From a virus, in IMG/VR virus record IMGVR_UViG_3300031673_000129, positions 1-43,793 of that record: a stretch of 43,793 nucleotides of DNA. The stretch is one strand, 5' to 3'. Below, piece by piece: positions 495 through 38,795 of the stretch; within the stretch, counting starts at the first letter, position 1; each line of letters begins with the position of its first letter. The translations under genes and the position numbers were made by a program. The notes below the pieces were generated by a model. That model was not told the DNA's origin and ran no database searches. It saw only the letters and a list, made by a program, of their open reading frames with translations.

Positions 495-629
495 TGGTGG
501 AGGCGTCGGGAATCGAACCCGAGTCTGGTTTTCACCTTAAATTACGATGCCCGTAGCGGTTCTCACTACTTGCGGGCAGGAGTCGTATGTAATTTCAAAG
601 CTACTCTGCCATCGAAACCTTACACCCCC
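495..629 (-). ncRNA. Compact tRNA/tmRNA-like RNA (135 nt, encoded CCA)
   Basis: On the minus strand GGGGGTG (629-623) pairs over all seven positions with CGCCTCC (505-499), followed by A and CCA (498-495). A five-pair T arm with a TTCGATT loop lies at 506-522. The 5' part reads GTAAGGTTTCGATGG, close to the D-loop signature GG(T/A)TTCGAnGG of bacterial tmRNA, with no normal D stem and no anticodon arm with U33. The middle folds into one long interrupted hairpin (AAATT/AATTT, ACGA/TCGT, GCCC/GGGC, GTAG/CTAC). Bacterial tmRNA is normally about 350 nt with a tag frame and pseudoknots, so this is either a minimal phage tmRNA or a tRNA-like relic. A frame from GCT gives ALKLHTTPARK and then TAG TGA, unlike usual ALAA-ending tags. 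It sits three bases after the phosphoesterase gene and is probably co-transcribed with it. Confidence 0.55.
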
Positions 630-632
630 ATA

Positions 633-1877
633 TTAAATTATTACCTCAAAGACCGTTCTTTTTTTCCGTATCCTGTCACTACTTTTAGCATTATAGGCTT
701 CAATTTCAGTTTCAATATCATATCCCTCAATATGTTCCGTATGTTGTAAATCTATCTTAATGCTATCTATCCTATTCGAACTATAAATGATATGTATATT
801 TTGACTTGCCCTACTGGTTAACTGCAATCCCCTTTCACTATATTCATTAGCCCCTACAATAGAACTACCCCTTGCGTATACATCACCTATTCGTGCTGAA
901 TGTAGGTGTCCTGATACTATAAAATGAATTGTTATCCCTTTAGCCGCATATTTACCTTTTATTCCCTGTATTGCGTGTTCAGTTTTTCCTTTTATTTGGT
1001 GTCCATGAATAAGCAATATATTTTTATTTCCTACCTTTACAATCTGCTCCATTGGGTCAGTATTGGTAAGAAATGTTATTCCTTTACTGCCCTTGAATAG
1101 ATAATCCAATATATTAAATATCGTAAAGTCATAATTATCCGTAGCTAATATATTATTCCAGGCTATATCTTTGGCTATCCTGCTTTCATTACCTGTTACA
1201 TTAGCTACCGTTAAATTAAAATCTTTATTTAAGTCAAGGATCATCAGTTCAATTAACCGGACAGCTAAAAAAGTAGCTTTACTTCTATTAGTCGCTTGTG
1301 CCAGCAATTCATCTAACCGCCTATCAGAATTAAGCAAATCCCCTGTCACAGCAAACAAAATATTCTTAACATTCTTTAGCTTAAAATATTCCCTCGCTTC
1401 TTCAACGAATAATTTACATCGTTTTGAGGCCACATTAAAATCATATTTATTGATGGCAAGGTTGACCAGTTCGTTAAAGTGCGGGTCGGTTAAATGGAAT
1501 ATCCCCGCTGCCTCATTCTGGTAATTTTTATGTTTAATGGTAAATTTAGCAAGATTATATTGGTCTAATACTTTAACTAATTCATTATTATATTCACTTA
1601 CCGCATTATCTAACCTTGCATATTCCCGAAATGATTTCCGTTCTATACGGTTAGAATCGGCAAACCGCTGGGTTTTTTTAGCAAGTCTAATATTCTCTCT
1701 TAATATTTCAAGGTCTATGTCCGGGAATTGGTCTAATATTTTTTTATCCGTAAATGTGGTTTGACAATCTTTACAGAAGAATTGTTGTGCTTTTTCTGTT
1801 TCCCTTTTTTTTAATTTTGCATATCCACTATAAATCCAATCGCTTGAGCCACATTCCGGACATTTTATATCTATCAA
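633..1877 (-). CDS. Zinc-ribbon metallophosphoesterase
   Basis: 414 aa. Residues 1-45 form a zinc ribbon (C6, C9, C35, C38), resembling the nucleic-acid-binding ribbon in front of some transposases. From about residue 125 a calcineurin-like phosphoesterase is recognisable by its ordered metal motifs: TDPHFN, TGDLLN, GNES, LIHGH and SGHLHS. The usual GNH(D/E) is GNES here, so the catalytic His is missing or replaced, and activity is uncertain. Phosphodiesterase action on nucleic acid or nucleotides is a family-level inference. Start: TTG after GGAGGTG; no better ATG exists upstream of C6. It is the last protein gene of the late operon, after the lysis genes. Confidence 0.8.
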   Translation of the reverse strand: MIDIKCPECGSSDWIYSGYAKLKKRETEKAQQFFCKDCQTTFTDKKILDQFPDIDLEILRENIRLAKKTQRFADSNRIERKSFREYARLDNAVSEYNNELVKVLDQYNLAKFTIKHKNYQNEAAGIFHLTDPHFNELVNLAINKYDFNVASKRCKLFVEEAREYFKLKNVKNILFAVTGDLLNSDRRLDELLAQATNRSKATFLAVRLIELMILDLNKDFNLTVANVTGNESRIAKDIAWNNILATDNYDFTIFNILDYLFKGSKGITFLTNTDPMEQIVKVGNKNILLIHGHQIKGKTEHAIQGIKGKYAAKGITIHFIVSGHLHSARIGDVYARGSSIVGANEYSERGLQLTSRASQNIHIIYSSNRIDSIKIDLQHTEHIEGYDIETEIEAYNAKSSDRIRKKRTVFEVII

Positions 1878-37399: not shown

Positions 37400-38620
37400 T
37401 TACTCAGTAGCCTTTGCCTTGCCTCTGAATGGGATTGCGTTATTAATACTGCTTCCTGGGATATCCTGGTCGGTGATTTCCTGGTCTTCCTTAATTACCT
37501 TTTGTAGTTCTATCAGCTTTTCTGGGTGATCCACGATATACGTTTTGGCCTGCGATGCAACTATACCCTCGAAGAAAATTTTATATCTCACTGCAACATC
37601 AATAATATCGCCCCAAGTATTCAAGCCATATTCCTTTGCAAGTTCTTCAATATCTGCAAGTATTTCCTTTCTTTTATCAGCTATTTTCTGTGCTTCTTCT
37701 GGAGTTCTAATGGAAGTTTTGCCTGCCTCTATCTGCTTTTTAAGTTCAGCCTGTCGCTTGTTGATTTCCTCGTATTCCTTATTTAACGCTTCCTGTTTCT
37801 TAACAGTTTCTTCCTCTCGTGCTTTAGTCTCTTCTTCTGTTTCCTCTGCAACGTATGCGTTATTTATTAATGGCAATTCAGTGGCTTCAAGTTCATATTG
37901 GCCATTTTTCTGCTGACCTAAATATAATATTTCACCGTTTGCCACTCTCCTAATTTCTTCAACGCTTGCAGCGATTTCAAGAGTAACTACCCAATGATCC
38001 TTCATCTTTGCAGTTCCCGGTATTTTCAGTTTCTTTAATACTCTCCTCATTCTGAAAGGTATCATAGCCCAGCAACCGCCGGTAGTCTTATTAGCCAATT
38101 CAAAAGCACTATTGCATTCTTCTATTGATACCGTTCCCCCAACTCTACATTGATAGAAAGTACCTATTGAAACCGAAGGCATCATAAATTTTAAATATCC
38201 CGATTTTACACAACCACCGATTTTAGTTTTTTTATCGTAGGGTCCATAATGCTCACAAGGGCATTTAACTTCTTCCCATCTACCATTTTCCAGGTTAAGT
38301 TTTTGTGCGGTTTTTGATACATCGCCATCTCCCTGACATAACAGGGCTTCATTGCCTCCGTATTTTTCGTAACATTGCGGAAACACTTCTTCCCTATTGG
38401 CTCTCGGAAAAAATACGATTAATTCTGTCGGTTCTTCTCCGTAGATTTTTGTTACTTCTTTTGGGCATACAAAATATTTGAGTTCAAGTGGATGTTCTAT
38501 GCCTTGTTCGTTCTTAACCTTAATACCTAATCTTATTTTTCCCCCTATGGGTAATTTAATATTCTTTGTTTCAGGTATCGTTGTATATCTACCTTTATCG
38601 AATTTACCATCACCGTTCAT
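37400..38620 (-). CDS. phiC31 gp3-like protein (recombination directionality factor family)
   Basis: 406 aa from ATG 38620 (AGGAGG eight bases upstream). Family blocks in order: LPIGGKIRLGIKV, PLELKYFVCPKEVTKIYG, LIVFFPRANREEVFPQCYEKYGG, LLCQGDGD, VKCPCEHYGP, GYLKFMMPSVS and TGGCWAMIPFRMRRVL. These match the phiC31 gp3-like family, whose founder controls integrase direction. Most members lie in phages without that use. The C-terminus adds a coiled coil (about 265-325) and a tail. No integrase is present here, so a recombination or ssDNA-related role is more likely. Confidence 0.65.
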   Translation of the reverse strand: MNGDGKFDKGRYTTIPETKNIKLPIGGKIRLGIKVKNEQGIEHPLELKYFVCPKEVTKIYGEEPTELIVFFPRANREEVFPQCYEKYGGNEALLCQGDGDVSKTAQKLNLENGRWEEVKCPCEHYGPYDKKTKIGGCVKSGYLKFMMPSVSIGTFYQCRVGGTVSIEECNSAFELANKTTGGCWAMIPFRMRRVLKKLKIPGTAKMKDHWVVTLEIAASVEEIRRVANGEILYLGQQKNGQYELEATELPLINNAYVAEETEEETKAREEETVKKQEALNKEYEEINKRQAELKKQIEAGKTSIRTPEEAQKIADKRKEILADIEELAKEYGLNTWGDIIDVAVRYKIFFEGIVASQAKTYIVDHPEKLIELQKVIKEDQEITDQDIPGSSINNAIPFRGKAKATE

Positions 38621-38795
38621 TTCCATTTCCTCCTAATTTTTTATTTTCTTCCTGCCTTATTCGATCCATTACGAATGCAGTGAAGTAACCATTTAGTTTA
38701 ATATCTTCCTGTCTTTGCTTTAATAGCTCAAGTTGTTGTTCTACATTCAGACCGTTCATTTTAGCCAGCCCTTTAGCTAATAGTTTTAGGGTCAT
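38610..38795 (-). CDS. Duplicated 61-aa protein (copy A)
   Basis: MTLKLLAKGLAKMNGLNVEQ, then LELLKQRQEDIKLNGYFTAF: helical, basic N-terminus. Nearly identical over its first 55 residues to the product of 39706-39888. Start ATG 38795 overlaps the upstream stop, with GGAGG six bases before. Not recognised. Confidence 0.65.
   Translation of the reverse strand: MTLKLLAKGLAKMNGLNVEQQLELLKQRQEDIKLNGYFTAFVMDRIRQEENKKLGGNGNER

Follow-up and report, generated by a model that had tools for sequence, protein, structure and literature searches.

Location and anatomy of the window RNA

The window, which is the whole stretch of 43,793 nucleotides that was analysed, corresponded to a 43.8-kb IMG/VR virus record with genes for a large terminase, portal, major capsid, tape measure, and endolysin. 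A recombination-directionality-factor-like protein (PF18897) was encoded at 37400–38626 (minus strand), and a tyrosine integrase was not found in the record. On the minus strand at 495–629, the window carried a 135-nt RNA with its 5' end at 629 and its encoded 3' CCA ending at 495 (window coordinate = 630 minus RNA position). The Rfam tmRNA family RF00023 matched this RNA with 51.7 bits (gathering threshold 47; E = 1.2e-17) in an alignment from the first to the last model position, in which only 50 nt of the middle stood opposite 276 model positions. The earlier note had placed a tmRNA-like RNA at these positions without naming the strand, and the Rfam match above threshold, the 7/7 acceptor stem, the T arm, and the CCA confirmed it. 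ARAGORN called neither a tRNA nor a tmRNA. The tRNA family RF00005 gave no match over the RNA in the Rfam scan, and an ordinary tRNA, defined by a cloverleaf with an anticodon arm, was therefore rejected. The minimum free energy (MFE) was –48.3 kcal/mol (z = –3.26), lower than that of all 200 dinucleotide shuffles.

An exonuclease gene (PHROG 284; 633–1877, minus strand) precedes the RNA, with 3 nt between the end of its stop codon and the RNA. This spacing pointed to probable excision of the RNA from the mRNA of that gene; the same arrangement of exonuclease gene and RNA was found in the related locus L005. The hexamer TAATAT (630–635, minus strand, in the window) stood directly 5' of the RNA in seven loci (the window, L005, L019, L026, L029, L027, and L032), where the preceding genes differed and TAA was the stop codon of the preceding gene in all but L019. 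This hexamer could be a mark of processing or of a mobile unit.

From the match to RF00023, the homologues, and covariation, we described the RNA as a mini-tmRNA consisting of a tRNA-like domain (TLD), a short H2 helix, and an extra helix with a hairpin, without a conserved tag frame. All of its parts lie on the minus strand. The 5' strand of the acceptor stem, GGGGGUG (623–629, RNA 1–7), pairs 7/7 with the 3' strand, CGCCUCC (499–505, RNA 125–131), and includes the G3:U70 pair that is the identity element for alanyl-tRNA synthetase; the discriminator A73 and the encoded CCA follow at 495–498 (RNA 132–135). The tmRNA-type D-loop core UUCGA (612–616, RNA 14–18) holds the positions equivalent to U17 and G19 of E. 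coli, and the A of the linker GAC (523–525, RNA 105–107) is equivalent to A334. In E. coli, A334 forms with A15 and U17 a pocket for Trp122 of SmpB, and a mutation of G19 blocks SmpB binding (PMC8363625). The T arm, UCGGG-UUCGAUU-CCCGA (506–522, RNA 108–124), was assigned by Rfam and alignment. Comparison with homologues placed the H2 helix at UGG (609–611, RNA 19–21) and CCA (526–528, RNA 102–104). Between the strands of H2, the middle of the RNA consisted of a helix and an inner hairpin. The helix, GCUUUGAAAUUAC (589–601, RNA 29–41) with GUAAUUUAAGGU (534–545, RNA 85–96), was drawn from the comparison with the homologue L025, and the MFE fold pairs part of 589–601 differently. The inner hairpin, UGCCC-GCAA-GUAGUG-AGAAC-CGCUAC-GGGCA (548–578, RNA 52–82), was taken from the MFE fold. 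The 7-bp acceptor, G3:U70, and A73 predict charging with alanine, and the counterparts of U17, G19, and A334, all of which were present, predict SmpB binding. The pseudoknots PK1–PK4 were missing from the RNA, which has 135 nt against about 350 nt in tmRNAs. The description as a tRNA-like 3' end, which the earlier note had offered as one reading, proved too weak, because both acceptor halves, the D-loop, and H2 are retained.

The middle of the RNA as structure

L025 was the sole match in a search for near copies of the middle of the window RNA. It was also the closest homologue, with 137 nt and an Rfam score of 56.7 bits. The tag frame proposed earlier, which begins at the 5' strand of the middle helix, is present in the window as ALKLHTTPARK followed by two stop codons, but in L025 it reads ALKLHI and one stop codon. 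In contrast, five pairs were changed on both sides and yet remained paired: RNA 5–127 in the acceptor, 53–81 and 56–78 in the inner hairpin, and 108–124 and 109–123 in the T stem. Pair 6–126 was changed on one side, and 41–85 was broken. The loss of the frame with retention of the pairing indicated that the middle behaves as structure and not as code. The 11-residue tag was therefore rejected, as its frame is unconserved between the two RNAs and sits in a helix, and the view that the RNA lacks a degradation tag was borne out. An mRNA-like region with a resume codon, a tag frame, and a stop was not recognized in the window RNA, and its relatives of about 80 nt have no room for a tag. Covariation in homologues, on which the earlier note had staked its claim, was observed in the compensatory pairs against L025 and in the acceptor, T arm, and H2.

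A family of short RNAs

We scanned 2.9 million virus contigs for a D-loop and a T arm with acceptor end at short spacing and then retained matches with a 7/7 acceptor; the patterns prescribe some D- and T-loop positions, and the counts refer to the collections searched. The first scans gave 40 distinct RNAs of 74–139 nt, including that of the window and one from a genome contig (L152). Thirty-eight were used further, since L013 (G3:C70) and L152 passed the acceptor filter but had no Rfam match. A second scan without the CCA requirement added at least 41 RNAs, and 39 of the 41 listed had 80–83 nt once the CCA was added. The family thus comprised at least 79 distinct short RNAs with a 7/7 acceptor, i.e. 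at least 78 besides that of the window, and most of them were a TLD with an H2 stub of about 80 nt. Of 50 records that carry short RNAs, 45 had an RF00023 match above the cut-off. A scan for longer forms of about 140–200 nt gave nothing convincing, and L003 (a full tmRNA) and L004 (a tRNA) were false leads.

The G3:U70 pair was found in 79 of 79 listed RNAs (38/38 and 41/41), although the patterns allowed C70; L013 stands outside this count. The wobble was never replaced by A:U or G:C, whereas the neighbouring pairs were nearly always of the Watson–Crick type. Because position 70 was also T in 107 of 124 pattern matches that failed the acceptor test, the weight of this result rests on the G at position 3. 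The linker A corresponding to A334, for which the patterns made no demand, was likewise present in 79 of 79 listed RNAs. Conservation of U17 and G19 provides no independent test, as both lie within the search pattern; L005, found through a neighbouring gene without the D-loop pattern, retained UUCGA.

In the block alignment A1 (32 distinct rows), the acceptor, H2, and T stem were paired in 99.8% of cells, and double changes occurred in 9 of 15 pairs; acceptor pairing was a selection criterion, but pairing of H2 and the outer T stem was not. The covariation score was 0.584, compared with 0.171 for shuffled alignments and at most 0.125 for slid partners. RNAalifold analysis of 35 sequences, mainly of the second set, gave an H2 of seven base pairs, six of which showed double changes, and the 80-nt class showed a small hairpin within H2 of roughly YAARNCC-GCAN-GG. 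As judged from these alignments, the structure of the short RNAs is under selection.

Distribution and genomic setting

When the 51 loci of the first set were grouped by at least two shared proteins, they fell into 28 groups, which indicated that the phages are diverse. Among the phages related to the window (L005, L019, L026/L029, L027, L012, and L201), the TLD ends were kept and the middles differed, with lengths of 89–135 nt; exceptions were L012, with a broken T stem, and L005, with a changed T loop. The syntenic RNA of L005 (7246–7343, 98 nt) kept the acceptor, UUCGACAG, and an H2-like helix, and its T loop read CUGACCG in place of UUCGAUU. Short RNAs lay inside phage tRNA arrays in L196, L205, L210, L215, and L230, and further ones adjoined one or two tRNAs. 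In L025, a tRNA-Sec-like RNA (587–659, minus strand; 39.9 bits, threshold 47) was located between the mini-tmRNA and two tRNA matches.

Isolated phages also carried such RNAs, none of them annotated as RNA: an 83-nt RNA in Stenotrophomonas virus Jojan60 (ON045087, 37722–37804; 61.8 bits), and RNAs in the Streptomyces phages BRock, pSt2308, and GiJojo (64.5, 61.0, and 57.4 bits, respectively). In GiJojo, gene 44 (L286, 551–793), which is annotated as a hypothetical protein and may have been called spuriously, overlaps the TLD-only RNA. Alone3 and Tomas seem to carry diverged forms, and several other candidates from isolates were ordinary full-length or permuted tmRNAs. A 123.6-kb record (G018) contained a full tmRNA (L241, 1501–1892; 94 bits) and a TLD-only RNA (L199, 1769–1850). 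In Tunturiibacter phage Tunturi_4 (L274, 216–563), a gene annotated as a release factor with an RF-1 domain lies directly upstream of a permuted-tmRNA match, which suggests a phage with two rescue parts; as the gene adjoins a permuted tmRNA, another class, it was rejected as a partner of the short RNAs.

No such RNA was detected with the short pattern in 796 bacterial genomes (398 from each of two phyla). Among the 398 genomes of each phylum, the pattern matched two in one phylum and none in the other, and both matches were an identical 49-nt string without the acceptor of the short RNAs. With longer spacing, the scan of genome contigs gave, among the matches listed, one with a 7/7 acceptor, the above L152 without an Rfam match. 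In the sample searched, the short RNAs are restricted to phages. The virus records, many of them fragments, contained no SmpB (50 records), no RF-1-domain or ArfB-like protein (33 records), and no tyrosine integrase (PF00589; 35 records). The lack of SmpB in the 50 records suggested that SmpB of the host would be used.

Separate from the mini-tmRNA and 72 nt downstream of it, the window contained an abiF-like motif (RF03085; 384–422, minus strand; 36.1 bits, gathering threshold 37). The same motif lay within 300 nt after the mini-tmRNA in L019 (5104–5140, minus strand), L026 (5400–5436, plus strand), and L029 (L287, i.e. G011:C1:1293–1329 of the same record), with 35.9 bits, below the threshold of 37. 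An Abi_2 protein was absent from 12 records with the longer form, including the four with the motif. The antitoxin abiF RNA binds AbiF and neutralizes it (PMC12373285), so an orphan would be in keeping with a decoy against host defence, and the motif is a possible decoy against AbiF of the host. It is consistent with a decoy reading of the mini-tmRNA, but is no proof of it.

Possible function of the short RNAs

Our best explanation, held with moderate confidence on the basis of sequence, is that the RNA is a phage-borne tmRNA derivative, reduced to the tRNA-like domain and a short H2, that acts as a dominant-negative inhibitor of trans-translation in the host. The RNA would be excised from the mRNA of the gene before it, the host alanyl-tRNA synthetase would charge it with alanine, and host SmpB and EF-Tu would bind it; it would then compete with host tmRNA for SmpB and stalled ribosomes. 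With neither a resume codon nor a tag, it could accept the nascent chain but could not complete trans-translation, so tagging and rescue in the host would be inhibited during infection, presumably to the benefit of the phage. Parts of this scheme follow known steps: G3:U70 specifies alanine, the alanyl-tmRNA–SmpB complex enters the stalled ribosome with EF-Tu (PMC8363625), and work cited there crystallized a tmRNA fragment on the ribosome together with SmpB and EF-Tu. As reported for Mao et al. 2009 in PMC4131195 and PMC11915505, a TLD-like molecule strongly inhibited tmRNA whether it was chargeable or not, perhaps by titration of SmpB. That inhibition did not need alanylation, yet G3:U70 is invariant in the family, so mere titration of SmpB does not explain everything; the invariance suggests that charging matters and that the action is ribosomal. 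Against the inhibitor stand the deviating T loop of L005 and T stem of L012, and the co-occurrence of a full and a short tmRNA in G018.

The main rival is rescue without a tag, in which the alanylated RNA with SmpB would enter stalled ribosomes, take the nascent chain, and eject the broken mRNA, while another factor frees the ribosome; the phage would gain recycled ribosomes, and truncated proteins would be spared proteolysis. The alanine identity of all 79 listed RNAs, for which pure titration has no need, is in its favour, as are the position of short RNAs among phage tRNAs, i.e. translation helpers, and the mitochondrial tmRNAs without a tag frame that are nevertheless kept together with SmpB (PMC11915505). 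We regard it as rather unlikely, because a template-less tmRNA has no known chain-release step, a release-factor-like protein was absent from the 33 records, and the sole experiment on a similar molecule reported in PMC4131195 showed inhibition and not rescue. A decoy for alanyl-tRNA synthetase or EF-Tu, aimed elsewhere than at trans-translation, would explain why little in the family is as constant as G3:U70 and the half formed by acceptor and T arm. A plain tRNA-Ala would suffice for that purpose, however, and such a decoy has no use for the linker A that is equally constant, nor for the UUCGA retained in L005. The conserved SmpB-contact nucleotides thus point to trans-translation as the target and leave the decoy a small probability.

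A minimal trans-translator with a very short tag in the middle would read GCA GAG UAG in the window and GCA GAA UAA in L019. Two-residue tags are known (PMC11915505), and GAR-UAR recurs in the window, L025, L019, L005, L022, and L036. The motif recurs among the longer forms but is no constant of the 80-nt class, just a few nucleotides separate it from the D-loop, and it could as well be an internal loop of the AGUA/GAA type next to H2. With the longer frame unconserved too, a short tag is very improbable. The least credible account is a dead remnant or an attP left from integration at host ssrA, a common integration site (PMC11915505, PMC10865867) of which a Moorella phage record has a 3' fragment under an integrase gene. 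In the short RNAs, however, both ends are present and covary, the 35 records gave no tyrosine integrase, and the lengths cluster at 80–83 nt.

Bacteria rescue their ribosomes mainly by trans-translation. A large and mostly unannotated family that is confined to phages in the sample and constant in its alanine and SmpB features would imply regular manipulation of ribosome rescue by phages, and it points to widespread interference of phages with this process, or to a widespread way around it. Going further, we tentatively consider, at somewhat less than even confidence, that template-less tmRNAs are a widespread phage tool against trans-translation of the host, and that in the group of the window they share an RNA island with an orphan antitoxin RNA of the abiF type, as sets of host-RNA mimics that disarm several RNA–protein systems. 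The short RNAs are natural minimal molecules for study of the tRNA-like domain alone, a question shared with mitochondrial tmRNAs, and their presence in isolated phages makes knock-outs feasible.

Comparison with known tmRNAs

Full bacterial and phage tmRNAs (RF00023) share with the short RNAs the acceptor with G3:U70, the UUCGA of the D-loop, the T arm, the start of H2, and the CCA. The short RNAs differ from them by the lack of PK1–PK4, the resume codon, and the tag, and by a length of 63–139 nt instead of about 350 nt. Permuted two-piece tmRNAs (RF01849–RF01851 and RF04321), which occurred in several isolated phages examined, also have a tRNA-like domain. In the window, however, the acceptor strands stand in normal order in one short RNA, no coding piece was found, and RF04321 reached only 30.3 bits on part of the RNA (threshold 47); a two-piece tmRNA was therefore rejected. 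Mitochondrial tmRNAs (RF02544) have likewise lost the tag frame and kept the TLD, but they are organellar with a nuclear-encoded SmpB, whereas the Rfam match of the window RNA was to RF00023. The nearest known case is mycobacteriophage DS6A, for which a 'TLD only' tmRNA has been recorded (Hudson 2014, PMC4131195; 2025 database paper, PMC11915505) as the single phage RNA of this kind named in the papers found. Judged by the published description, the window RNA resembles it as a tag-less phage RNA with little more than the tRNA-like domain. DS6A was an isolated example, whereas here RNAs of this kind, with a regular H2 stub, came from a large number of unrelated phages, and that of the window adds a helix and hairpin of about 55 nt. 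By its sequence anatomy, the window RNA departs from tmRNA proper in the tag and pseudoknots and is a longer variant of the TLD-only kind. This kind was already known from DS6A; what is new is the breadth and constancy of the family.
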